From contig JAKSKX010000002.1 of NCBI GenBank assembly GCA_024401535.1, forward strand, positions 62,001 through 126,000: a stretch of 64,000 bases of DNA. The letters run 5' to 3'. Source of the DNA: Paludibacteraceae bacterium. GTDB lineage: Bacteria > Bacteroidota > Bacteroidia > Bacteroidales > Paludibacteraceae. Made by a program: the position numbers and the translations under genes. Positions within the stretch are counted from its first letter, which is position 1, and the number at the start of each line of letters is the position of its first letter. Shown in pieces: positions 2,122-64,000 of this stretch. Below the pieces are notes generated by a model. It did not search any database. It was given only the letters and a program-made list of their open reading frames with translations, and had not been told where the DNA came from.

Positions 2122-3639
2122 ATGATACAGAAGATTTTAGTTGCCAATAGAGGTGAGATAGCAATGCGAGTGATGCGCTCTTGCAAAGAGATGGGCATCA
2201 AGACGGTTGCTGTGTACTCTGAGGCAGACAGAACATCTAAGCATGTATTTTACGCAGACGAGGCTATTTGTATAGGACCCGCTGCATCAAGAGAGAGTTA
2301 TCTTTGCATCGACAAGATTATCGATGCTGCCAAGAAATTCGGAGCAGACGCAATCCACCCAGGATATGGTTTCTTGAGCGAGAATGCAGAGTTTGCAGCT
2401 CGATGCAAGAAAGAGGACATCATCTTTATCGGAGCTCCTGCTGAAGCAATGGTCAAGATGGGTGACAAGATTATGGCCCGCCAAACAATGATCGCTGCCG
2501 GTGTGCCAGTCGTTCCTGGCACTCAGGAGGCACTAAAGGATGCTGACGAGGCTGTAAAGGTTGCAATGGAAATCGGACTTCCTGTTATGCTTAAGGCAAG
2601 TGCCGGTGGTGGTGGTAAGGGTATCCGCCTTGTATGGAAGAAGGAGGAGATTGCCGAGGCATTCAACACAGCGCAGAGTGAAGCTATTTCATCGTTCAAC
2701 GATGGCACAATATACATAGAGAAGTTCATCGAGACTCCTCACCACATCGAGTTCCAGGTGCTTGCAGACCAGCACGGAAACTGCGTACACTTGTTCGAGC
2801 GTGAGTGTTCTATCCAGCGCCGTAACCAGAAGGTTGTTGAGGAGAGTCCGTCTCCGCTAATGACTCCGGACGTAAGAAAGAAGATGGGAGAAATCGCCGT
2901 ACGCGCTGCCAAGGCAGTAAAGTACGAAGGAGCAGGTACAATCGAGTTCCTTGTTGACGACAACTTGAACTTCTATTTCCTTGAAATGAACACTCGACTT
3001 CAGGTTGAGCACCCTATCACAGAGGAAGTGGTTGGTGTTGACCTTGTTAAGGAGCAGATTAACGTGGCTAACGGTCTTCCTTTGAGATTCAAGCAGGAGG
3101 ACTTGACACAGAGAGGTCACGCTATCGAGTGCCGTATCTGTGCAGAGGACGCCGAGAACAACTTTATGCCTGACACTGGCGTGATCAAGCAGCTTCAGGA
3201 GCCTCTTGGAATCGGAACTCGTGTAGATAGCTTCGTTTACGAGGGTTACGAAATCCCTGTTCACTACGACCCTATGATTGGTAAGCTAATCGTTTGGGCT
3301 GTAACTAGAGAGTTCGCTATCGAGAGAATGAGACGTGTTCTTTACGAGTACAGAATCACTGGTCTAAAGACAAACATCTCGTACCTAAGAAAGATTATGG
3401 ATGTACCTGCATTCGTCGAAGGCAAATACAACACTAAGTTCATCGCTGAAAACAACGACAAGCTAAGTGAAGAGAAGCTTTACGAGGCAGAGAAGAGCGA
3501 GGTAGAGGACATCGCTATCATCGCATCATATATGGACTATATCGTTAACTTGGAGGAAAATTCTCCAAAGACAGGCGACAACCGACCTATCAGCAGATGG
3601 AGAGAGTTCGGTAAGCGCACAAATATGGTCAGAATCTAA
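2122..3639 (+). CDS. Acyl-CoA carboxylase, biotin carboxylase subunit
   Basis: A 505-residue ATP-grasp enzyme that carboxylates the biotin carried by the next gene product using ATP and bicarbonate. The glycine-rich ATP loop lies at 158-167 (KASAGGGGKG), and the catalytic E288-M-N-T-R292 block coincides with the E. coli AccC numbering. It is longer than AccC (449 residues) by an acidic C-terminal extension from about 450. It is followed after 18 bases by the biotin carrier and then the carboxyltransferase, so this is a three-subunit acyl-CoA carboxylase (propionyl- or acetyl-CoA type), not a sodium-pumping decarboxylase, since no membrane beta subunit is present. Third-position codon use looks strongly biased, as in highly expressed genes. 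Confidence 0.93.
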   Translation: MIQKILVANRGEIAMRVMRSCKEMGIKTVAVYSEADRTSKHVFYADEAICIGPAASRESYLCIDKIIDAAKKFGADAIHPGYGFLSENAEFAARCKKEDIIFIGAPAEAMVKMGDKIMARQTMIAAGVPVVPGTQEALKDADEAVKVAMEIGLPVMLKASAGGGGKGIRLVWKKEEIAEAFNTAQSEAISSFNDGTIYIEKFIETPHHIEFQVLADQHGNCVHLFERECSIQRRNQKVVEESPSPLMTPDVRKKMGEIAVRAAKAVKYEGAGTIEFLVDDNLNFYFLEMNTRLQVEHPITEEVVGVDLVKEQINVANGLPLRFKQEDLTQRGHAIECRICAEDAENNFMPDTGVIKQLQEPLGIGTRVDSFVYEGYEIPVHYDPMIGKLIVWAVTREFAIERMRRVLYEYRITGLKTNISYLRKIMDVPAFVEGKYNTKFIAENNDKLSEEKLYEAEKSEVEDIAIIASYMDYIVNLEENSPKTGDNRPISRWREFGKRTNMVRI

Positions 3640-50495: not shown

Positions 50496-53400
50496 TTACT
50501 TGAAGTAAACTACCTCAATAGTACCCTTGATAACATCACGGTCCCTAGTAACCACGTAGTAGTAAACTGTTGGGTCCGCAAGCATACCACGAATCATACC
50601 GTCCCAACCGTCATCTCCACTAAATACCAAGTTACCGTAACGGTTATAGATCTCGACCTTGAAGCCCTTCATGAATACGTCATTCATTCCGATTGAGTTA
50701 TGAGGAGTGAATGCTGTAGGGATGAAGTCGTAAGCATCAATCTCGACTACGTTAGAAGCAGCAGAGCTACATACGTTATCAGTAGCGACCACATAGAACA
50801 ATGTAGTGTCCTGAACGCTGTTTACCCTCATGTTCTTGAAGAACTCCTCGTAGCTGTTAGTTGTACCGATCAACTCGTCTCGCTCGTCAAGAGGATTCAA
50901 GTAGCTTTCAACAACATTTCCGTATCCATCGAACTTGCCTGAAACTGCATCGAACTGACCGTTAACCTTGTACCACAACAACTCTACATCCTCGCTGTAG
51001 TGAGTTGTAACCTTTAGGTCAACAGGATCACCTGCCCAAACTCTTGGCTTGTCACTTGGATTAGATGTCAAAAGGATCTTCTCTGGCAAGATCTGCTCGC
51101 GAACATCAAGTTCAAGAGCGTTAGAAGAAGAGTCTCTCAACAGACCGGCTACCGTAGTGTCACTCTCGAATGTTCCGTTGTTAACATTGTAAGAGTAGTC
51201 ACAACTCCACAACTTAGAACTGTCGCTTCGTGTAACACCACACTCGTTCTCTGCGTAGTAAACTAGCTTAGCACCGTCATCTCCGAATGTTACAGGGCGT
51301 CCGGCGTAAACCGAGTCACTCAAAATCCAACCTGAACTGATGATTGGTGAACCCATATCCTCAACACATACATTATAGATGTCAACGTATTCACCCGAAG
51401 GACCGCTGATTGGAAGTGGCAAGTTCTCACAGCTCTCAACCAAGCTTGTAGCCATTGCCACACGTGGCTTCTCCATAATCTTCACGAAGAATGAAGTGGT
51501 ATCCTTACATCCGGTCAATGTATCAGTAGCAACTACGAAGTATGTTCCTGTATGAGACACATTATTCAAAGAAAGAGCCACATTCTTGATAGAGTCACGC
51601 TCAGCCTTGTCGCTTGTAAAGAACTTGCGGTAATAAGGCTTATTTCTGTTGTTACTCCATATTACATGATCATCATCAACACTCTCCTTAAATACGTCGT
51701 AAGAGAACAATGATATTCTGTTTTCGAACTTCTTGGTTTCTGGTTCATAGTACCAATAATTACCATGAACAGGAACAAGCTCTGAAGACAACAAGTTCAA
51801 ATCCTTGCGCGATCCCTCACAGAACTCCTCATCATGAGAAGATATGTCAACGATTACCTTTCGGTTTGGAACAACAATGCTCTTAGTGTAATCCGACTTG
51901 TTACCACAAACATCGGTTAGAGTGATAACCGCATCGGTATTTTCATGAAGATTTGTACCAACTGCAGGAACCTGGGAAATATGCATTACCGCAGAGTCAG
52001 CACAATTATCGTTCCAGTTGTAAGAGAACTTAGTGATATCCATCATCTCGAAGATACATTCCTTCTTGAACTGAACAGAAATCACACTGTCAATGAATGA
52101 TTGAGTCAAGTTGAATGTAGGAGCGATAGTATCGCGAACCAAAATCTTGAACACAACGCTGTCTGCTGTTGACAAGTTACACTCGTCAGTTGCATAGTAT
52201 GTATAGATATGCTCATAGTTGTAATGGCTACACTCCTTAGGGTCATCGCTCTGAGTAGTGCTATATACATACTTGACAGTAGCTGTTCCGCAATTATCGA
52301 CTGCACTCAAATTAGTTGGAAGTACCGACTCGTTCAAAGTCTCGTGACAAGCGATAACAGGGAATTCATCAACCAACTTGTTTACCCAGTTTGGCCTCAA
52401 AGTATCCTTGATAGCGAACTTATTGACACATACGCTTGAATCTCTGAATCTGTCATAGATTGTGTAAGTGCGGACTACATAGCCGTCACACTTGTCACCC
52501 TCCATAGAATCCTCTACCTTGAATCCGGTAACATTTCTTTCTGTCAACACCTTACCACCAATATAAGACTTGAAGTAGTCAAGATCTGAAGGTATCTCTG
52601 GAATTCTGTTGTCATCAGGACAAGCAAGAACTCCCTGGTAATCCATAGGACAGATAATCTCAGGATGAACACTATCAACAACAACAAGCTCGGTCATACA
52701 ATAGTTAGAATTGTCTGACAAATCTGTGAATGTAATCTTAACGTCAACAGTGTCATCCAAAGGATAAATGTCCTCTGTGAAGTTCTTGCCGTCAAGACGT
52801 TCGATTTGAGGATTCAACAAACCGTCACACAAGTCATTGAACTTATCCTCTACTGCATAGTTAGGCAACTCGCGGAAGTCTGCGATAGAGACTGACTTGT
52901 TATGCTCCCTCAACACGTATGTCAATGTAGGATACTTGCTGCAGTCCAAAGCAGGAGGAACAGTGTCCTTTACAACCACAGACTGCTTGCGAACAACCTT
53001 GTTGCCACTTTCGTCTGAAACTACCCAAGTAATTTCCTGACTTGCATTTTTCATCAATTCCTGAATCTTGAATGGATTGGCGTCAGTCAACTCGATAGTG
53101 TCATTACCGCTAACATAAGAGATAGTAGGATTAGAAGTACAGTTGTCTGCTGGGTGAAGTGAATCCTTCATCATTGCAAGAGTAGCCTCGTAGTCTGCAT
53201 CACATCTGCCAGGCTCAGAGTAGATGACAAAGTCATGCAACCTGTCAGCCTTTGGAGATGTTGTATCGACTGCAAGGAATGTCACGACACAAGACTCGAA
53301 TGAGTTTGTACCATCTGTAACCTCGAATTCATAAGACTTAGACTCTCCTCTTGTCAAAGACAACGAGATATTGTCGAAGCTTGTAAATGAGCTACCATCC

Positions 53401-56400
53401 TTAATCTTTATCAATACTGAATCCTGGCAATCATGTGAAACCTTGTCCATGTCACTAGTTGTAAGCATATTCTCAGGAGTACCCCAGTAGCTTGAACCCT
53501 TAGGAGTCAATACTGCATCAGCACGCAAGTTGATCAACATCTGCTTAGCGGATATAACGTCAGTGTTCATACAATCGTCTCCGACATAAACCTTAACTGG
53601 CTCAGTAGGGCAGACATAATCAGGAGCAAGGACGTCTTGAACCGTTACTTTCTGATCCATAGTACTTACAGGATTGATTCCATCGCTCACATACCAAGTA
53701 ATTGTATTGACACCTAGCAACTCCGCGAAGTCTTCTTTGAACTTATTGTTAACCTTAACCTTCTTGCCATCATTGATTGAGTACTCTATAGTAAGTTTCT
53801 CTGTACAGTCCTTGATGTCAAGTAGTGTATAAATATCTTCGCGAGTTAGTTCATATTCAGCCTTACAGTCCTCACCACGATTCAACAATGTATCGATAAC
53901 TTCCGTAGTAAGAACCGGACTGTTCTTATCAACACCCTTGTATGTTACCGTACAAGTTGTAGTGTTTCCAAGTTCATCCTTGATAGTGTACTTGACAGTC
54001 TGAGTCTTGCCGATAGTCAACTCTACATCCTGATCAAGTCTGTCGTTCTCAACACTCAACTTGCTTCCACAACCGCTGTGATGCAATAGGCTGTCATAGT
54101 CAGCAGAAGTCTCGTCAACTCCCTGCTCTGCCAAAACAGGCTTACGGAAGAACTCGATCATATCCTCGCTCTTGGTTGATGCAGTAGCCAAACACAAGTT
54201 GTCGTAGTCAACAGCAATCTCAACCACTGTATCAGGGCAAGCAATCTCTGGTGCGATGTTAGGAACGGTAATTGTCTGTGTACAGAAATCATTTCTATTT
54301 CCAGCCTTGTCTGTGAATACCCACTGAATCTGAGTCTCACCTACCTTGAATGGAGCATCAATACCCTCTGCCACATCACCGAAGTAGCGAGTAGGAACCT
54401 TAGTGATTTCTTCGTAAGGAGAGCAGTTGTCAGTGATGTACTGCTTCTTGGCGTCAATATTCTCAAGAGTCAACATACCGTGAGCCTTCAAGAATGTAGA
54501 GTCAATGCACTTGGCACCGCCCAACATAGCCTCAGTAATTGTCACGTCAGGAACGAGCTTGTTGCAGACAGCCTCAGGAGCATCCATATCCTTGACAACC
54601 ACATTTTGAGTAACCGAGCTTGCGTTGTGCTTCTCGCTTCTGTCTGTAGCTATCCATTCGATAGTCTGTCCGTCAGTTACTGTGATGCTGTTTTTCTCAC
54701 CTATAATGAAGATCTTATCCTTATCGCCATCCTGAACGTAAGTGCCGTCAGAGTTCATCACCTTGTAAGTGACATCATATCCGCTACAGTCAGCAACCTT
54801 TAGAAGATCTATTACGTCAGTCTTAGTCATTACTGTCTTACCCTCACACTTGTTGTCTGCCACAAGCTCCATATCTTTCAAGTAAGAAGCAAGAGTCGGA
54901 GGTGTAACATCCTCAGCCTTGACTACAGTCTTACACTGCTTAGAGTCAAGAGTTCCGTCATTCAATGTCCAGTAAACATTCTTCTTCAATGTATTGTTGT
55001 CAATATCGAACTGATTGAATGAAACTGTCATCTTGTCAACATTACCGGCAACACCCTCTGTGTCAGAAACCTTCACTGTCAAATCCTTACCACAATCGTC
55101 ATAGATGTTTGTGATAGTCTTGTTTCCATCATCAACTGAAGTTCTGAAATAATCCTCGTCACCAGTATTCTTTGCGCTGATTACGCCATCCGAACCAATA
55201 GAAATCTTGTCCTTCAAGTGACCAAGAGCCAACTGGTGAAGATCCATTACTATTGAAGCTTCGCAATTATCAGCCAAGTTAACCTTAATGGTATCAGGGC
55301 AGGCAATCTCTGGAGCTACACCGTCAGTAACCTTGATTTCATGCTCGTCAACCTTAGCAGTTGTTGTTCCGTCTAGTCCAACTGAATTCCACTCGATAGT
55401 GTAGTCTCCTGGTACAAGAGGCTTATTGAATGACTCAGTAGGCTTGATAGATCCGTCATACTTCTTGTCGCTATCGTTAGCGTCTGTGATTGTATATTTC
55501 AACTCTGAAACAGGAGAACAATCCTTGTATTCCTGGTGATAGATCTCCTTATATACATCCTCGAATGTCTTAGCGTAGTCGTATGAACACTCCTCTTTGT
55601 CAGAATCATCCTTCTTTGTCTTGAATTCTGTTTCATCAGCAAGAGCATGTGTAGTCAAAATCTGAGGAGCACCAACCAATGTATATACACACTCGGTTTG
55701 GTTACCAGAAGCGTCAGCAACAACAATAGTTACCTGCTTCTCCTCCTTGTATTTGATTGTCATCGACGAGCTAGAACGAAGAGTGTCACCATCGGCTATG
55801 AAGTTGTTTGATTCGTCCTTAGTAGCAACCACTACCTTAGTAGTAAGACCTTCATCACAATCGTTCTTCATAGCTGTCTTCTGCTCATCAAAGAAGTTGT
55901 ACTCAGTATTAAAGATAGAATTCTCTACAGAATTGCTTTCTACATACTCGATTGCCTTTCCGTCCTGGTCTGTAGCAGATGCACCCAAAATTGTCTTAGC
56001 ACGAGAAGCGAACAACAACTTATCGAAGTCAAGGTCAACTACTGTATCACACTCGACACCGACAGGAACATTGATTACATTGTCACCGTAACAAGCAATC
56101 TCTGGTGCAATATCATCCTTGACATATAGATTCTGAGTTACTTTTGACTTGTTAGCCGCAGGACTCTTGTCAGTGACTGTGTACTCTATTGAATACTCAC
56201 CATGAACAAGATCCTTAGTCATCTCGCTGTAGTCAACTGTACCATTGTTGTCAACATAAACATTGTCCTTGGAAGCAACCACGTTACCGTCCTTGTCTTT
56301 GATTACAATGTCGATAGACTTGAACTCAGAACAATCAAATACCTTGTCAGCTATCATTGACTTAAGGTCTGACTCGACTGTCTTGTACTTAGCCGAGCAC

Positions 56401-59400
56401 TTGTCAGCTGGTGTTTCACTGTAATTGATTGTCTTGTCAACAAGAGATACAGCGGAAACGTCTGGTCTGATTGTATCGACCGGAGTGATTGTTGTAGTGC
56501 AAGACTCCGAACGATTCTGGCTTGGAGAAGCATCAACCAATGTCCACTCGATTTCAACCTTGTCAGACATGCTGCTAAGTTCAACCTTTAGGTCTGTAGT
56601 GTTCAACTCCTTAACCGAAGCGTCCTTGTTAGTCTTGTACTCGACTGTTAGAGGATCACCGCACTCGTCAGTAATCTCTGTAATCTTACCGGTAACATCA
56701 TCAGTCTTGAAAGTAACACCGCTTGAAGTAGTCTTGTTAGTGACTACTCCTCCGACAGTGTCAATTACACCAGCCTTGTACAAATAATCCTTGGCAAAGT
56801 CATGGAATGTAATCGTGCTGTCAGCCTTACACTCACCGTCAAGAATCAATGTGTTTTCATGAACACACTCGAACTCAGGCGCTACATCATCAACGACTGT
56901 CAACTTCTCGTTCTTAGATGTCTCGAGGCCGTTCTCATCCTTTGCTGTATATGTAATGACGTAGTCGCCAAAGTGCAAGTCTTCGATCTTTATGCCAGAA
57001 TAGCCGTTAACCTTGTCATAGACTGTACCCTCTTTCAAGCACTCTGTATCTGACTCAGTCTTCTTCAAGCAGTACTTAACCTCGCTCAACGAACAATCAC
57101 TAACACCAAGAAGTAACTTGATTTCTGAATCTGTTCTGATGTAATCTGCACCGCAAGTCTTGTGAGAACTCTCCATGTACGAAATCGAGTACTCTAGAAG
57201 ATCTTTCATCACAGGAGCCTTGTCATCAATAGCCTCAATCTTTTGTGTACAAGTCTCGGAGATTCCGTCATATTTAGTTGAGAACTTCCAAGTAATTGTC
57301 TCGCTTTGCTTGTCATTTGTTAGAACATGTTCAAATGGCATAGGATTGAAATTAGTACCATCCAATGCGTACTCAACAATAATCTCGTCATCAGGAGCGC
57401 AAAGTTTTGCTGAAACACTATCCTTGACATCCTCAACCGAAATCTTGACATCTTTCTTGCAGCCATCCTCAAGAGGCAATACCATACCCTTGAAATTCTC
57501 GCATGTGATATGTAGGTCTTCACTTGAAGCGGCGTACTTGATATCTCTTGTAACGACACAGCTGTTTGCATCAGTAAGCTTGACACCAAGACTAGCAAAC
57601 TTCACATTGCCGGACAAAGCGAACTTGCTGTCTGCGTAAGATGCTACATCCTCCTTGGTCAATATCTCTACGATATACTTATTTTGGTAGTTGTCTCCCG
57701 TAATAGGAGTTGTGTAAGGAGTACCACCTGTCACATTCTTCAACTCTACAACCGAATAGTCGTATGTACAAGGAGTTGAAACACCATCAGTAGAGTAAGC
57801 CAAGTCGAAGGAAACAGCTGTTGCCGGCTGGCTGATAGTTTCAGTTATATCCTCAGTTATGGTATTGTCTGCGTCAAGGATAAACTTCATGTTGTACTCT
57901 CCTGCTACAAGTCCTGTGAACTTGGCAATATGCTTGCCCTCTGTAACATTGTATGTTGATGTAACAGACTTGCTGCCATCAGTCATATCCACCTTAAACT
58001 TGCCTGACGCTGACTTGATAGTGATTGTACCCTCGTCACCAGGATTCTCATCATTTGCCATACATAGGGCATCCTCATGAGTAACCTCAACATCTGCGGC
58101 GTCAGAAGGACCAACAACCACCTGGAACGGGTAAGGACAGTCGTTGCCGTCAACTACATTATAGTAGTATGTGCCTGCTGTCAAACCGGACTCAACGATT
58201 GAAGTTCCGTTGTATGATGTTCCAGGAGTGCAATCGTCACCATCCTTGTCTGTCATACAGTACTTGAAGCTTCCATATCCACCGTCAAGAGTGACTGTAT
58301 ATGAAGCATCGTTATTGCCATAAGTAGAAGGCTTTTTAACATCCAAAACTGTGCTAGATATTGCCTCAGACGGCTGTTCAACCTTGAAGTCAACCTTATC
58401 GGACTTACAAGAATTAGCGTCAGTTACAACCAACGAGTAGGTAACCGCTGAATGGTCAAGCGCAGAAGTAGTTACTGAAGAAGTACTTGCGCTGAAAGAC
58501 GCGTCACTGTCTTTAGTCCAAGAATATGTGTACGATGCCTTACCCTTGCTTACCTCAGGTTCGATAGTAGTGGTAGCATTGTAACACAATGTCTTTGGAA
58601 GCTGAGCAGTAACAACCGGCTTCTCGTTGATTACATGAGTATAATAAAGTTTATCTGATGTGTTAGAACACTCATCAGAAACAGTAACCATATACTCATA
58701 AGTATTAGGAACAGTCTCCGAAGAAGTGAACTTGGCATCAGAGCCAAGAGACACATCTGGTTTGTCAACAGCTGCCCAATTATACTTGATACAGTTGCTG
58801 CAAGCCAAACTTGAAGAAGCACCTACAACCTCAACCTCAGGATTTGCGCCACCCTCACAGACTGAAGTGTTAGCCTTAGAAAGTGTTCCTACCGTGAATG
58901 TTGACGGATTAGTAATCACAACATTAGTCTCACTTGAAACAGAACATCCGTTGGCGTCGGTCACTGCAACAGAATATGTACCCTGAGCCTTCTGGATTGT
59001 AGCTGTTGACTCAGTTTCTCCCATTTTTACAGCTTCATCACTGTTGACCCTGTAAGTGTATGGTTTTGTACCACCACTTATAGCCAAATTGATGTCTGTT
59101 TTCACATCGTGGCAAACCTCTGTCACATCTGCAGACCAAGTGTCTAGCTTCAATGACTTAGGAACAGTAAGAGTAATATATGTCTCCCTAGAATGGCCTT
59201 CTGGATCTTTGTTACCACAAGTATCCTTTGCTAAGACATATACCTTTGTATCCTTCGAGATTGTAGCGCCCAAAGGCTCTCCGTCCTTGTCTCCAACCTT
59301 GAATATGTATTCGTTGTCTTTCTCGAACAAGCAGTCAGCAATCTCGAACTGTATGTTAGTCTTGATCATGTCGATATCGACAGGGAACTCACAGTTCACT

Positions 59401-62400
59401 CCTGTTGTCAACTTGACTGGATCAGGATTCTTGTTGATTGTTGGCTGTTCCAAGTCTGCATAGAATCTGCCATTCTTAACTTCGCTGACACATCCGCTCT
59501 CGTCATTCTTAACCTGTAGAGTGTATTTGTACTCACCGCCACAACGCTTAGTCATATCGCGCTTGAACTTGACCTGGGCACCTTCACCTACTATCTCTGT
59601 ACCTTCTGGAACCCATACATAGGTATTTGTACCCTCTGTGTATCCTGCACCTTCACCGGTTACGAATGTAGCTTCAACACCATATCTGTCTTCGCTTGCG
59701 CAATAACCTGTTCTTCTTGTGCCGTCAGTATTGAAATCATCAACCAAGAAACCTCCCAATACCGGATTCCTATATACTGTTGCGCTTACAGGAGTCGAAG
59801 TTGCCTCACAGCCGTTTACAGAAGCCACAACTGTGTATGTTGCAGTTGAGTGTGTAGCTCCGGCAGCAAGCTTCAATGTCTGAGATGCGGCAGAAGCGTT
59901 CTCCGGAGCAGGTGTTCCTGTCCATGTGTATGTGATGTCCTCTGTCACAGCTGTCTCGCCTATCTTGACCAATGGAGTGAATGTGATGTCTGTCTCACAT
60001 GACTTCTCCTGGGCAATAATCTTGACTGTTGGCTGAGGCTTGACAGTCACGATGACATCGACCTCCTTGTCGGTACAAGTTCCGTTCTTTGCAACGAATG
60101 TGTACTTCGTAGTCTCTGTCAATGCTGCAGTTATGTAGTCGTCGCCGACCTTAGTCAATCCTGCAGGAGTCTCCATCGTACCAATCAAACCGGAAGTCTT
60201 GATTGTTGCTGTCTGACCGCTACAGATTGGTTCTGGAGTCACTGCAATCACATTCGGAGCAAGATAAGAAGTCGCTGATGCATTTACATGCTCAGACTCA
60301 CACTCGTTGCCGGATGCAAATGTCTTGACAGCCTTGACGAACCATTCCTGAGTCTCCATAAAGTCCGCATCGTCGGAAGCGACAGTGAATGACTGGGCAT
60401 TGTTCCTATTGTCATTCTCTGAATATGCGCCCGTCTCTGTTCTGCTCCACAAGTATTTGATATTCTCAATATCATCAGATCCGCCAACCTTGGCCGAAGC
60501 TGTGAAAGTTGCCTCTCCGCACGCTGTGGCAGGAGTAAGAACCACCTCCACCTTGTCAAGCTCTGTAACATTAACTGTCTTTGTAGCTTCACATCCGTTG
60601 TCGTCCTTTACTGTGAACGTATGGCTTGCAGTTCCCTTGAAGCCAGAGAATGTTGTGTTCTCTGCGCCTGTCTGGTCTGCCTTGCCTGATACGGAGAATG
60701 TGTAGGCGGATGCCTTTGTTCCTCCATCAGCAGTAAGCTCGATATCGGCTTCAACTCCGTTACATACTGTGATGTCAGATGCAGACAACTTCAACTCTGC
60801 AGGCTCGCCTATCACTACACTTATTGGGGAAGTTGAGCAACCGAACTTGTCGCTGACTACCAATGTATATGAATCTTTAGCAAGACCTGTGAGCTGGATG
60901 TCGCTAGTTGTAATATTAGTAGAGCTCTTGACCACTTCGCTGCTAGAGTTCTTTAACTCGTAGGAAGCAGCCAAATCCTTGTCAACTATGAAGTCAACCT
61001 TACCGTTAGCCGTATAGCCGGTATTGGCTGTGTTACAAGTGACCGAAGTAACCGTAGGTGCGGCAATATCCAACGTGTTAGGTATGCTGATCTTGACTGT
61101 CTTGGGCTCAGACTTGTTGCCGCATTCGTCAACCATCACAACGCTGACTGTTGTCGAGCTTGATATCGTTGATCCTGCTGAAGGAGTCTGCTCGAAGTGG
61201 TGTCCGATGCTGCATCCGTCAACCTCTTCCTTTGTGTTGTCTGTGAAGACATTAGGAACTGTGTACTCGCAGTTCGCACCCTCTGCCGAGAACTCTGTCT
61301 TCACAAGGTCGAATGACAATGTGTTGTTCTTCTCTACAGTGTAGCTGCCTGACTTGCTGTCACTACATCCTGTTGTCTCGTTCTCAACCTTCAATGTGTA
61401 TGAGAATGAAGGCTCGCAAGCACCTGTTGTGTTTGAAAGAGTTCCTACATTTGTTGTACCAGTTGCATCATCGGACCATGAGTACTTGTAGCTGTGGCCG
61501 GCCTTGGCATTTGTCACAGTTGCAGTAACCTCGTAGCTTGCCGCCTTAGAGCATGCTGCTGCAGGGTTTGTGAATGTGAACACCGGCTTCTTGTTGAATG
61601 TCGCTGTCTTTGTGTCAGGCTCAGACCAGCATCCGTTGGCATCCTTGACCTTGACGCTTACTGACTTCTGCTCGCCGTCTGTGTATGTCGAAGCATAGGC
61701 CTCTGTGTATTTTGAAGCGCCTTCCTCAGCTGAGCCGTTCCAGTAGTAGTGGTATGCAGCAACTCCCCCGCTCACCTCAGGAGTGAACTCGATGCCCTCC
61801 TCACAGCTCTTCTTGTCTGCCAAAGTGACCGTAGGGTTTGCATAGACTGTAAACGTGAAGTCATTTGCATCTGTCTTGCCGCACTCGTTCTTCACCTTAT
61901 ATGTAAACGTATGGTTGCCTGCCGACAAGCCCTTGATGTAGTCCGAAGTCACCTTGATGTCTCCGTCATACCACTCTGCCTCGCGCAAAGAGTTGTTCAC
62001 ATTCGCATCGTTCCATGTCACTGACGGAGAAGGAAGGACAACTCCCTCAGCACCGGCACAGACTGACGTCAATGTGGCTGTTCCGATCTCAGGATCGGCG
62101 TAAACGTTTACAACGATATTCACCTCTTCGCTAGGACATCCGTACTTGTCAGTTACAACTGCCTTGTGTGTGCCCTCGCCAAGAGCGAACTTCGTCTTGT
62201 CTATAGCATCTGACGACTCCGTACCGTCAACTGTGTACTTGTACTCGCCCTCTGTCTCTGTCTTCAAAGTAAGCTTGAACTCTGCTGTAGCACCCTCACA
62301 CACAGTCTTAGGCTCGACTTCGTTAAGTGCAGGAGAGTCATACATCTTCACCTCGAACTCACCTGATGTGTTCTCGCATCCGTTTGCGTCAGAGACTGTA

Positions 62401-64000
62401 ACAGTGTACTTGCCTGCTGCACTCACGTTAATCTCGCGAGTCACTTCTGCTGTACTCCACTTGTATGTAGTGTATTCCTCAGAAGTACTCAAAGCCAATG
62501 CAACTCCATCGTTACACAAGTAGTCGTCAGCATATGTCTTCTCTATAACAGGCTGAGGAAGTTCGTTGAACTCAACTACCTTGCTGTCACTGTTCACACA
62601 ACCCTTAGAATCCTTGACATATACTGTATGCTCCTTGTTGTCAGAGCTTACTGTGATTGAAGGCTTGTCACTGTATTCAGTCTCTGAGTCCCACTTGTAT
62701 GTAACGCCTGTGGCATTAGCCTTAAGTGTTGTATTCTTTCCTTCACAAACCTTATCATAGCTTAGCGATACGCTAGGCTTAGAGTTTGCTGATACAATGT
62801 GAGATATCGAGTTTGTACAGTTCTCGCCCATTGACACCTCGACATGGTATGTGCCTGCCTCGGCAACCTCAAGAGTGTTCTTTGTGCCAAGACTTGTCTC
62901 TTTTGCTCCCTCCTTGTACCAGTTGTATGTCACACCTGTAGCGTTTGCTGTCAACAAAGCCTTCTGCTGTGCTTCCTCGTCTCCATCCTTACACAACGCT
63001 GTTGTCTCTGTGATGGTTACCGAAGGTCTTGCGGAAGCTGTCATTGTGGCAGTAGCAGGCTCAGATGCGCTACAAGTTCCGTTCTTGGCTGTTGCAGATA
63101 TATGCCATACATCACCGTCTCCGATAGCTTGAGTAATCTTGCTATCCGTAACTGTTGCCAATGTCTTGTGCGCTGCGTCTCCATCCTTCCAGATGTATGC
63201 AGTGACATCTCCGACAACATTATTAAGTGTCACTGAAGCATCGTTGCCAGGACATACGCTTACGCTTGCGTCTGCGAACTCTACGTGAGACGTTGCATCT
63301 ACATTGACTGTGATTACGTTTGAATAAACCGGACTGCCACAGTCGTTCTTAACCATATATCTAATTTCGTAAGAACCGTTTTTCGATATTGCTGTTCCCG
63401 CAGTATAATCAGCCCAGTTATCCTCGCCCGCTTCTGAAATCTGCCAGCCCTGCTCTTTAATAGCATCGCCGTTATCGTCGATTGTCTTTGTCAATCCATT
63501 CAATGCTGTTTCTGAAAGCGAGCCGCCCTCACAGATGTTCGCCAATACACCGGACATGCTTACTGTAGGCGCAGAATTGATTGTCAATGTGTATGTCAAA
63601 TCCTCTGTCTTACCCTTTGTACAAGCGTCATTAACTGTAACCTTATATGTGTAAGTTCCTACCTCTGTAACTGTTGGAGTAAATGAGTTTGTTGTCACGG
63701 AAGACATGTCCTCCGCAATAGCATCTATGGATTCAGATGTCCATTTGTATGTCAAACCGCTCTCCTCTCCATTTGTTGTAGCATTGACTTTGATTTGGGC
63801 AACATCTTCAATCTTCTCCTTACAGATTGTCTGCGCAGTAGAGGCAAGTGTCGCTTCTGTCCATGTATATTCGTCAATAGAGAATGTCTCTGGTTCACTT
63901 GTACATCCGAACTTGTCGGTCACTGTCGCTGAGTAGCTGCCAGACTTCGCTCCAAGTGAGAATACTGCATCGTTTGTTGATGATTTAGAACCATCTACCT
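50496..64000 (-). CDS. Giant type IX-secreted surface protein (SprB-like), 5' end outside the window
   Basis: The reading frame is open from its stop at 50496 to the right edge, giving at least 4,500 residues; the GTG at 63923 is an internal valine codon (SATVTDKFGC), not a start. The C-terminus (50499 to about 50740) is a gliding-motility-type sorting domain (IPTAFTPHNSIGMNDVF, VEIYNRYGNLVF, GWDG), the type B signal of the type IX secretion system. From about 57.2 kb to the edge it is a chain of Ig/PKD-like and SprB-type repeats, many ending in DxxGC. Between 52.6 and 57.2 kb two other module types alternate. No membrane segments are seen. It is expected to be exported and held on the cell surface as an adhesin or motility filament. 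Confidence 0.9.
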   Translation of the reverse strand, partial: VDGSKSSTNDAVFSLGAKSGSYSATVTDKFGCTSEPETFSIDEYTWTEATLASTAQTICKEKIEDVAQIKVNATTNGEESGLTYKWTSESIDAIAEDMSSVTTNSFTPTVTEVGTYTYKVTVNDACTKGKTEDLTYTLTINSAPTVSMSGVLANICEGGSLSETALNGLTKTIDDNGDAIKEQGWQISEAGEDNWADYTAGTAISKNGSYEIRYMVKNDCGSPVYSNVITVNVDATSHVEFADASVSVCPGNDASVTLNNVVGDVTAYIWKDGDAAHKTLATVTDSKITQAIGDGDVWHISATAKNGTCSASEPATATMTASARPSVTITETTALCKDGDEEAQQKALLTANATGVTYNWYKEGAKETSLGTKNTLEVAEAGTYHVEVSMGENCTNSISHIVSANSKPSVSLSYDKVCEGKNTTLKANATGVTYKWDSETEYSDKPSITVSSDNKEHTVYVKDSKGCVNSDSKVVEFNELPQPVIEKTYADDYLCNDGVALALSTSEEYTTYKWSTAEVTREINVSAAGKYTVTVSDANGCENTSGEFEVKMYDSPALNEVEPKTVCEGATAEFKLTLKTETEGEYKYTVDGTESSDAIDKTKFALGEGTHKAVVTDKYGCPSEEVNIVVNVYADPEIGTATLTSVCAGAEGVVLPSPSVTWNDANVNNSLREAEWYDGDIKVTSDYIKGLSAGNHTFTYKVKNECGKTDANDFTFTVYANPTVTLADKKSCEEGIEFTPEVSGGVAAYHYYWNGSAEEGASKYTEAYASTYTDGEQKSVSVKVKDANGCWSEPDTKTATFNKKPVFTFTNPAAACSKAASYEVTATVTNAKAGHSYKYSWSDDATGTTNVGTLSNTTGACEPSFSYTLKVENETTGCSDSKSGSYTVEKNNTLSFDLVKTEFSAEGANCEYTVPNVFTDNTKEEVDGCSIGHHFEQTPSAGSTISSSTTVSVVMVDECGNKSEPKTVKISIPNTLDIAAPTVTSVTCNTANTGYTANGKVDFIVDKDLAASYELKNSSSEVVKSSTNITTSDIQLTGLAKDSYTLVVSDKFGCSTSPISVVIGEPAELKLSASDITVCNGVEADIELTADGGTKASAYTFSVSGKADQTGAENTTFSGFKGTASHTFTVKDDNGCEATKTVNVTELDKVEVVLTPATACGEATFTASAKVGGSDDIENIKYLWSRTETGAYSENDNRNNAQSFTVASDDADFMETQEWFVKAVKTFASGNECESEHVNASATSYLAPNVIAVTPEPICSGQTATIKTSGLIGTMETPAGLTKVGDDYITAALTETTKYTFVAKNGTCTDKEVDVIVTVKPQPTVKIIAQEKSCETDITFTPLVKIGETAVTEDITYTWTGTPAPENASAASQTLKLAAGATHSTATYTVVASVNGCEATSTPVSATVYRNPVLGGFLVDDFNTDGTRRTGYCASEDRYGVEATFVTGEGAGYTEGTNTYVWVPEGTEIVGEGAQVKFKRDMTKRCGGEYKYTLQVKNDESGCVSEVKNGRFYADLEQPTINKNPDPVKLTTGVNCEFPVDIDMIKTNIQFEIADCLFEKDNEYIFKVGDKDGEPLGATISKDTKVYVLAKDTCGNKDPEGHSRETYITLTVPKSLKLDTWSADVTEVCHDVKTDINLAISGGTKPYTYRVNSDEAVKMGETESTATIQKAQGTYSVAVTDANGCSVSSETNVVITNPSTFTVGTLSKANTSVCEGGANPEVEVVGASSSLACSNCIKYNWAAVDKPDVSLGSDAKFTSSETVPNTYEYMVTVSDECSNTSDKLYYTHVINEKPVVTAQLPKTLCYNATTTIEPEVSKGKASYTYSWTKDSDASFSASTSSVTTSALDHSAVTYSLVVTDANSCKSDKVDFKVEQPSEAISSTVLDVKKPSTYGNNDASYTVTLDGGYGSFKYCMTDKDGDDCTPGTSYNGTSIVESGLTAGTYYYNVVDGNDCPYPFQVVVGPSDAADVEVTHEDALCMANDENPGDEGTITIKSASGKFKVDMTDGSKSVTSTYNVTEGKHIAKFTGLVAGEYNMKFILDADNTITEDITETISQPATAVSFDLAYSTDGVSTPCTYDYSVVELKNVTGGTPYTTPITGDNYQNKYIVEILTKEDVASYADSKFALSGNVKFASLGVKLTDANSCVVTRDIKYAASSEDLHITCENFKGMVLPLEDGCKKDVKISVEDVKDSVSAKLCAPDDEIIVEYALDGTNFNPMPFEHVLTNDKQSETITWKFSTKYDGISETCTQKIEAIDDKAPVMKDLLEYSISYMESSHKTCGADYIRTDSEIKLLLGVSDCSLSEVKYCLKKTESDTECLKEGTVYDKVNGYSGIKIEDLHFGDYVITYTAKDENGLETSKNEKLTVVDDVAPEFECVHENTLILDGECKADSTITFHDFAKDYLYKAGVIDTVGGVVTNKTTSSGVTFKTDDVTGKITEITDECGDPLTVEYKTNKDASVKELNTTDLKVELSSMSDKVEIEWTLVDASPSQNRSESCTTTITPVDTIRPDVSAVSLVDKTINYSETPADKCSAKYKTVESDLKSMIADKVFDCSEFKSIDIVIKDKDGNVVASKDNVYVDNNGTVDYSEMTKDLVHGEYSIEYTVTDKSPAANKSKVTQNLYVKDDIAPEIACYGDNVINVPVGVECDTVVDLDFDKLLFASRAKTILGASATDQDGKAIEYVESNSVENSIFNTEYNFFDEQKTAMKNDCDEGLTTKVVVATKDESNNFIADGDTLRSSSSMTIKYKEEKQVTIVVADASGNQTECVYTLVGAPQILTTHALADETEFKTKKDDSDKEECSYDYAKTFEDVYKEIYHQEYKDCSPVSELKYTITDANDSDKKYDGSIKPTESFNKPLVPGDYTIEWNSVGLDGTTTAKVDEHEIKVTDGVAPEIACPDTIKVNLADNCEASIVMDLHQLALGHLKDKISIGSDGVISAKNTGDEDYFRTSVDDGNKTITNIYDDCGKDLTVKVSDTEGVAGNVDKMTVSFNQFDIDNNTLKKNVYWTLNDGTLDSKQCKTVVKAEDVTPPTLASYLKDMELVADNKCEGKTVMTKTDVIDLLKVADCSGYDVTYKVMNSDGTYVQDGDKDKIFIIGEKNSITVTDGQTIEWIATDRSEKHNASSVTQNVVVKDMDAPEAVCNKLVPDVTITEAMLGGAKCIDSTFLKAHGMLTLENIDAKKQYITDNCSPYEEITKVPTRYFGDVAEGIDAPFKVGETQIQWVFTDKAGNRNDFCTQTITVPNIAPEIACPDTVVEIAVDYDNLCLATASTKSEDMIEFFRKPVLAEQGVDETSADYDSLLHHSGCGSKLSVENDRLDQDVELTIGKTQTVKYTIKDELGNTTTCTVTYKGVDKNSPVLTTEVIDTLLNRGEDCKAEYELTREDIYTLLDIKDCTEKLTIEYSINDGKKVKVNNKFKEDFAELLGVNTITWYVSDGINPVSTMDQKVTVQDVLAPDYVCPTEPVKVYVGDDCMNTDVISAKQMLINLRADAVLTPKGSSYWGTPENMLTTSDMDKVSHDCQDSVLIKIKDGSSFTSFDNISLSLTRGESKSYEFEVTDGTNSFESCVVTFLAVDTTSPKADRLHDFVIYSEPGRCDADYEATLAMMKDSLHPADNCTSNPTISYVSGNDTIELTDANPFKIQELMKNASQEITWVVSDESGNKVVRKQSVVVKDTVPPALDCSKYPTLTYVLREHNKSVSIADFRELPNYAVEDKFNDLCDGLLNPQIERLDGKNFTEDIYPLDDTVDVKITFTDLSDNSNYCMTELVVVDSVHPEIICPMDYQGVLACPDDNRIPEIPSDLDYFKSYIGGKVLTERNVTGFKVEDSMEGDKCDGYVVRTYTIYDRFRDSSVCVNKFAIKDTLRPNWVNKLVDEFPVIACHETLNESVLPTNLSAVDNCGTATVKYVYSTTQSDDPKECSHYNYEHIYTYYATDECNLSTADSVVFKILVRDTIAPTFNLTQSFIDSVISVQFKKECIFEMMDITKFSYNWNDNCADSAVMHISQVPAVGTNLHENTDAVITLTDVCGNKSDYTKSIVVPNRKVIVDISSHDEEFCEGSRKDLNLLSSELVPVHGNYWYYEPETKKFENRISLFSYDVFKESVDDDHVIWSNNRNKPYYRKFFTSDKAERDSIKNVALSLNNVSHTGTYFVVATDTLTGCKDTTSFFVKIMEKPRVAMATSLVESCENLPLPISGPSGEYVDIYNVCVEDMGSPIISSGWILSDSVYAGRPVTFGDDGAKLVYYAENECGVTRSDSSKLWSCDYSYNVNNGTFESDTTVAGLLRDSSSNALELDVREQILPEKILLTSNPSDKPRVWAGDPVDLKVTTHYSEDVELLWYKVNGQFDAVSGKFDGYGNVVESYLNPLDERDELIGTTNSYEEFFKNMRVNSVQDTTLFYVVATDNVCSSAASNVVEIDAYDFIPTAFTPHNSIGMNDVFMKGFKVEIYNRYGNLVFSGDDGWDGMIRGMLADPTVYYYVVTRDRDVIKGTIEVVYFK
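50499..50740 (-). other. Type B (gliding-motility) C-terminal sorting domain
   Basis: About 81 residues with the family order PTAFTP..., NDVF, IYNRYGNLVF, WDG, YYYVV and a final strand to the stop. This domain directs type IX secretion of SprB-like proteins, which usually need a PorP/SprF partner; none is encoded in the window. Confidence 0.88.
52630..57240 (-). repeat. Alternating two-module super-repeat of the giant protein
   Basis: Two module types alternate. Type E starts with APEIACP-like blocks (near 56,880, 56,105, 55,318, 54,580, 54,253, 53,625, 52,960 and 52,665). Type O starts with xPxLxx and contains a later DC(S/T) (near 57,215, 56,465, 55,670, 54,903, 53,920 and 53,255). The first four O-to-O distances are about 750, 795 and 767 bases, a period of 250-265 residues. 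The order breaks near 54.5-54.2 kb, where two type E modules are adjacent. Confidence 0.75.
57240..64000 (-). repeat. Ig/PKD-like and SprB-type repeats of the giant protein
   Basis: About 2,250 residues made of diverged beta-sandwich modules, each typically with a VC/SC(e/n)G start, a YxWxxD core and an end such as TYTVTVSDANGC. At least eleven DxxGC or DxxxC ends can be read (for example SDANGC, TDKYGC, KDANGC, SDKFGC, KDDNGC, TDANGC). Paired cysteines suggest disulfides in the exported protein. Confidence 0.75.

Follow-up and report, generated by a model that had tools for sequence, protein, structure and literature searches.

The 64,000-nucleotide stretch of DNA analyzed here (the window) comes from the Paludibacteraceae bacterium assembly GCA_024401535.1 (contig JAKSKX010000002.1, positions 62,001 to 126,000 of the forward strand). 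At positions 50496..63998, on the minus strand, it holds 4,500 codons from the C-terminal end of a giant open reading frame (ORF) that extends beyond the window and carries a long array of two module types, E and O, both of which look like variants of the HYR domain. From stop to stop, the full frame measures 11,291 codons (contig C12:112499-146371, loci L022 and L023). Its first in-frame ATG is codon 23, and a hydrophobic, signal-like stretch, as judged by eye, lies behind the methionine. Homologous giant frames of 12,302, 12,966, and 9,186 codons are present in three relatives. While residues 1-5,124 of the protein gave no Pfam match over cut-off, Ig_7 was matched over cut-off in the 1,667 residues that follow. 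The relatives used for comparison are draft metagenome-assembled genomes, in which the assembly of repeats is error-prone; the five best-matching named records are also metagenome-assembled genomes, four of them labeled Bacteroidales and one Paludibacteraceae.

Architecture of the array

Cutting the protein at its D..(A/P)P junctions divided residues 2158-4045 of the 4,500-residue frame, corresponding to window 51864-57527 on the minus strand, into 17 modules. A sequence-only reading of the window had correctly located the modules at residues 2253-3790. Profile hidden Markov models (HMMs) separate two distinct types, as that reading had it: type E, which is 110-147 residues long with four conserved cysteines, and type O, which is 98-120 residues long with two. 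Six of the 17 modules were typed as O by the HMMs and five (E1, E2, E3, E5, and E6) as E, and the E model left E4 and E0, with four cysteines each, unmatched. The training set of the first round came solely from this protein (five E and six O modules), and all sequences were used in later rounds. Even so, the single-protein HMMs recovered the module order in relatives. Since their best scores for single domains in relatives are 105 bits for E and 78 bits for O, the two-type pattern goes beyond chance. The modules, together with a C-terminal stretch considered further below, are as follows.

57225..57527, minus strand: E0, four cysteines, without the long insert; the O model is its best HMM match
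56889..57224, minus strand: O1, two cysteines on top of the conserved pair
56475..56888, minus strand: E1, from junction cut and HMM
56115..56474, minus strand: O2, from junction cut and HMM
55674..56114, minus strand: E2, with DFDKLLFASRAKTIL downstream of cysteine 2
55323..55673, minus strand: O3, in which KTFEDVYKEIYHQEYKDCS spans from between the two cysteines to the second one
54909..55322, minus strand: E3, from junction cut and HMM
54588..54908, minus strand: O4, from junction cut and HMM
54258..54587, minus strand: E4, four cysteines, the top Pfam HYR score of the array (26.1 bits), no E-model match
53928..54257, minus strand: E5, HYR score of 22.9 bits, directly after E4
53634..53927, minus strand: O5, from junction cut and HMM
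53265..53633, minus strand: E6, from junction cut and HMM
52965..53264, minus strand: O6, from junction cut and HMM
52404..52964, minus strand: E7 (three cysteines) and E8 (four), adjacent, with a cysteine near start and end; no Pfam match at an E value of 0.01
51864..52403, minus strand: X1 and X2, further modules delimited solely by junction motifs; no Pfam HYR match at an E value of 0.01
50499..50717, minus strand: stretch similar to a type B sorting domain (TIGR04131, CHU_C), with scores under the curated cut-offs

The sequence-only reading had the two types follow each other in strict order for about 1,500 residues. Within its limits, the order is O1 E1 O2 E2 O3 E3 O4 E4 E5 O5 E6 O6 E7. 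Alternation holds for O1-E1-O2-E2-O3-E3-O4 (residues 2259-3137), but E4 (residues 3138-3247) adjoins E5 (3248-3357) before O5-E6-O6, and E7 adjoins E8 after O6. Since E4 and E5 are both four-cysteine modules, strict alternation fails. A four-cysteine module is found at the E4/E5 place in all six relatives examined, and six relatives of the genus, one of which is represented by a partial contig, share the module order. The proposed unit length of 250-265 residues is about right for the first three pairs (250, 267, and 255 residues), but later pairs are shorter, with 217, 221, and 197 residues (sums of module boundaries, pairing O4+E4, O5+E6, and O6+E7). As for the motifs described in the modules, AP starts E1 to E6, but the exact APEIACP opening occurs solely in E3 and E5. 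The center of O reads DC(S/T) or NCT in six of six modules, as described, and the C.A.Y segment takes the form C-x-x-x-Y in five of six.

Conserved cysteines and the E insert

We compared 41 E rows and 47 O rows, from a collection in which matches of 30 bits or less were omitted. In E, a proline and cysteines C1, C2, and C3 are invariant, and an aspartate and C4 are nearly so; C1, C2, C3, and C4 are present in 41, 41, 41, and 40 of the 41 rows, respectively, the exception being truncated by a stop in relative L035. The likeness of the E start to HYR is borne out, with the P..xC start present and the four HYR cysteines kept. In O, C2, C3, and an aspartate near the end are invariant, and none of the 47 rows has a cysteine in the first 12 or the last 16 residues; exactly two cysteines are found in 37 rows, three in 6, and four in 4. 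This O alignment (A4) holds 47 of 49 listed rows, the two left out (L033:3782-4063 and L034:4873-5268) being the E0 modules of relatives; when they are included, C4 is present in 2 of 49 O-model rows. Both excluded rows, which have cysteines at both ends, keep the coupling of C1 and C4. Because C1 and C4 are present or absent together, the pattern suggests that they are linked by a disulfide in E, and a second disulfide probably joins C2 and C3.

For HYR itself, we used a reference set of 19 PF02494 matches from other genomes, picked from a longer list (L045, L048, and L049, in which most of the model is covered, were left out). C2 is present in 13 of these 19 sequences. The C2-C3 spacing is 14-18 residues in HYR (n = 19), 18-23 in O (n = 47), and 41-64 in E (n = 41), which places the insert of E between C2 and C3. 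The earlier claim of helical inserts stands in part: E has an insert at this position, but the corresponding O segment, which exceeds that of HYR by only ~5 residues (median 20 vs. 15), is hardly one. By Chou-Fasman analysis, the helix propensity of the E C2-C3 segment is slightly raised, which supports helicity weakly.

Relationship to the HYR domain

The explanation we favor, with a probability of about 0.68, is that E is an HYR module with a loop insert, that O is an HYR-like module without C1 and C4, and that the array was shaped by duplication and loss of O-E pairs. In this scheme, E would retain its four cysteines and have gained a loop of ~40 residues between cysteines 2 and 3, and O would have gone without cysteines 1 and 4. 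The scheme draws directly on the modules and their order, the cysteine pattern, the profile similarity to HYR, and the duplication of pairs in relatives; both module types would adopt an immunoglobulin (Ig)-like fold.

Profile comparison with hhalign aligned O with the 19 HYR sequences end to end (95.6%, E value 1e-8, 85 columns). With its C2-C3 columns removed, E matched the same set at 97.5% (E value 5e-12) over 81 columns, with all four cysteines in register, and the E and O profiles matched each other at 94.4% (E value 9e-8). Among 59 cuts of 53 columns scanned along E, removal of the C2-C3 region gave the best match to HYR (97.6%, E value 4e-12); upon removal of the last strands, the match fell to about 44-51%. 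When columns were shuffled (360 trials across E, O, and cut E), no match to HYR exceeded 10%. The sequence-only reading had proposed an undescribed domain pair, which is not supported here: O and, after shortening of its middle, E both align end to end with HYR, and the HYR start (P..xC), end (D..GN..C), and all four cysteines are preserved in E.

A number of results weigh against the HYR explanation. Most modules are not HYR members by Pfam's curated rule, since only two of the ten scanned, E4 (26.1 bits) and E5 (22.9 bits), passed the PF02494 cut-off of 21.7 bits, and did so over their last 30 residues; a match of all modules to one Pfam family over their full length, inserts included, which had been named earlier as a result that would refute a new domain pair, was not what we found. 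E2 scored 13.6 bits, below the cut-off, the four O modules scanned had no HYR match among the Pfam matches listed, and at an E value of 1 or less HYR was matched by 14 of 41 E rows and 9 of 47 O rows. A Pfam and NCBIfam scan of the 4,500-residue frame likewise returned little for the array. When whole E was aligned locally with HYR, the last 23 columns alone were covered, and C3 was off by one column in the O-HYR alignment (with C2 in register) and out of register between E and O. Cuts almost anywhere in E from columns 8 to 144 gave 94.7-97.6% end to end against HYR, with 96-97% for cuts in the middle, even with C2 or C3 lost, and the C2-C3 cut beat other middle cuts by only one to three orders of magnitude. 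As most middle cuts work, the E-HYR match rests on the first and last strands and their cysteines, and it is the cysteine spacing that positions the insert. In addition, 1 of 40 O shuffles run with the global option gave 99.6%, which did not recur in 120 local-mode shuffles (at most 0.8%). The PF16403 and PDB matches of O and the mixed character of E0, described next, belong on the same side.

These last results bear on the possibility of a hetero-array, in which O would derive from another Ig-like family (PF16403, Big_9, or PKD-like) and E from HYR. We consider it unlikely. The Pfam family that O matches most often is PF16403 (22 of 47 rows); of four rows inspected, one passed its cut-off (28.5 vs. 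27 bits). PDB profile searches with O returned weak Ig/PKD matches, to bacillolysin (E value 4e-4) and the PKD domains of KIAA0319L (E value 5e-4); the HYR set itself reached a best E value of 2e-4. The missing C1 and C4 of O would suit such an origin as well. However, the PF16403 matches looked at span just the final 27-29 residues of O, a C-terminal part that is alike in many Ig-like families, whereas the O-HYR alignment covers 85 columns, and all 47 O rows retain two cysteines, with C2 in HYR register. E0, for which the O model is the best match and which yet has four cysteines, is what would be expected of an intermediate.

Another explanation, which we hold to be very improbable, is that O and E belong to two unrelated families whose different folds were fused and then amplified together. 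Consistent with it, eight of the ten modules scanned have no Pfam family over cut-off, no Pfam match over cut-off spans the E insert, and the best E value of the E profile against the PDB was 0.49. The 94.4% match between the two profiles argues against it, as do the end-to-end matches of O and shortened E with HYR, in which C2 and the final strand are in register.

Pair duplication and distribution

In trees of the E and O modules, those of this protein group mostly with same-place modules in relatives, which indicates that the array is older than the species; these trees contain several long branches, whose joins drew a warning from the tool. Ahead of the extra module, there are five O-E pairs in relatives L033, L034, L035, and L036 (the first of the five in L035 is broken by a stop) and three in this genome and in L037 (SIG116). 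Measured across both modules, protein identity between pairs 1 and 4 is 77% in L033, 80% in L034, and 62% in L036, which shows that the O-E pair was copied as a unit and upholds the earlier proposal that the two-type super-repeat grew by duplication. Pairs in this protein and in L037 are 25-31% identical. Across six proteins, neighboring modules have at most 38% identity and same-type modules up to 84%; in this protein itself, the values are 30% for neighbors and 36% for the same type.

Under the HYR explanation, whole O-E pairs would have been duplicated and lost as the array grew and shrank. Such paired duplication and loss would keep the types in register and neighboring modules dissimilar. 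In tandem-domain proteins, divergent neighbors have been tied to the avoidance of misfolding (PMC4660218).

The array is found in seven of the nine genomes of the genus, including this one, and the two without it are 77 and 78% complete. A homologue search in Bacteroidales, which had been suggested, found matches to the O-E pair profile in 45 of 200 genomes of the family and 115 of 393 genomes of the order, but among the matches listed near-full-length ones occur in the genus only. The longest listed match outside the genus covers positions 40-218 of 232 (33 bits), and the listed matches there cover mostly the O end and the E start, a region that HYR arrays share. Tandem HYR-like modules, mostly with cysteines at both ends, are also present in other large proteins of the family (eight loci by HMM, stretches of three by eye); in a non-systematic look at these eight loci, no O-E alternation was seen. 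In the literature searched, we found no publication joining Paludibacteraceae with HYR, HYR domains with type IX secretion, or either of these two with giant proteins; HYR domain and Bacteroidetes do co-occur, in three papers.

Export and surface role

Its features suggest that the giant protein may be a surface filament or adhesin exported by the type IX secretion system (T9SS). The type B-like domain lies at the very C terminus, which fits a sorting domain. The genome encodes SprA (2272.8 bits, over cut-off) and has eight PorP/SprF matches over cut-off, so the secretion-system components searched for, as expected for a T9SS substrate, are present. A second large protein in the same genome (L124:713-12664, contig C56; 3,984 codons) matches HYR and carries a type B sorting domain that exceeds the cut-off, with 39.7 bits. 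Speaking against export by this route, TIGR04131 scores 29.0 bits in the giant protein and 32.1, 31.7, 32.7, and 34.8 bits in four relatives, below the cut-off of 35 in five of five homologues scanned, and none of the eight PorP/SprF matches is on contig C12. Type B proteins such as SprB are described as bound at the surface by PorP-like proteins (PMC9143113). Tandem HYR modules are known in bacterial surface proteins, with the function of HYR given as unknown (PMC3723904).

On the simplest reading, the HYR array would be a spacer in a long surface filament or adhesin, and the E inserts would be exposed loops, possibly making contacts. A more specific idea, which seems to us distinctly doubtful, is that the alternation is a mechanical design. 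E would be locked by the C1-C4 disulfide, so that force bypasses the module, and O, without this clamp, could unfold; the result would be a filament of locked and extensible links, duplicated only as such pairs, with E inserts as regularly spaced binding loops.

Surroundings of the array and the giant gene

N-terminal to the array, the giant protein has eight Ig_7 stretches (best at window 62790-62972), BiPBP_C (best stretch at window 58941-59102), and a sub-cut-off SprB repeat (window 58515-58586). Upstream of the giant gene (L023:15481-18988) are a 490-residue AAA_25/DnaB-like protein, three small TonB C-terminal-domain proteins, and a fourth ORF similar to the small TonB-type ones (the domain scan covered three). 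A protein of ~1,000 residues lies directly downstream of the giant gene in relatives L024, L026, L028, L030 (1008-3989), and L031; that of L030 was unmatched in the window by tblastn. In relative RUG12804 (L035), an in-frame TGA near 2459-2461 falls within the first E module of the giant gene; either the assembly is wrong at this point or the gene is broken.

Comparison with known systems

SprB of Flavobacterium johnsoniae is very large and built of repeats. Sub-cut-off SprB-repeat matches occur elsewhere in the giant protein, whereas the array modules are HYR-like. SprB is a type B T9SS adhesin, and the giant protein resembles it in its sub-cut-off type B C-terminal signal; sprF adjoins sprB (PMC9143113), in contrast to contig C12, which is without PorP/SprF match. 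HycP of Clostridium cellulolyticum, likewise large and bacterial, consists for the most part of 23 HYR modules in tandem, the function of which is given as unknown (PMC3723904). There, however, copies of one ~75-residue module are combined with a cellulose-binding module, whereas here two types alternate, and no carbohydrate-binding module was matched in Pfam scans of the giant protein.

HYR_4C (PF23237, "HYR-like domain with 4 cysteines"), suspected from its name, shares four cysteines with E and is matched elsewhere among the large proteins of this bacterial family. We rejected it as the identity of E: its profile, from ten rows picked from a longer list, matched E weakly (27%) with the cysteines placed elsewhere, E4 reached 12.8 bits against a cut-off of 27, and this genome had no match at an E value of 0.001.

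The closest likeness is to HYR (PF02494) itself, which E resembles in its four cysteines, P..xC start, C2, D(N)C center, and D..GN..C end, and which both O and shortened E match end to end. The differences are the longer C2-C3 segment of E (41-64 residues vs. 14-18), the missing C1 and C4 of O, and the eight of ten modules below the Pfam cut-off. Judged by these profiles, the array looks like a variant of the known HYR module rather than an undescribed domain pair. It would add to this family a loop-inserted subtype and a reduced two-cysteine subtype, mostly under the Pfam cut-off, which are set in near-regular two-beat order inside an 11,291-codon open frame, with neighboring modules kept dissimilar because duplication is paired. 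Should E modules really be clamped between C1 and C4, the array would offer a naturally occurring model of stiff links that alternate with soft ones.

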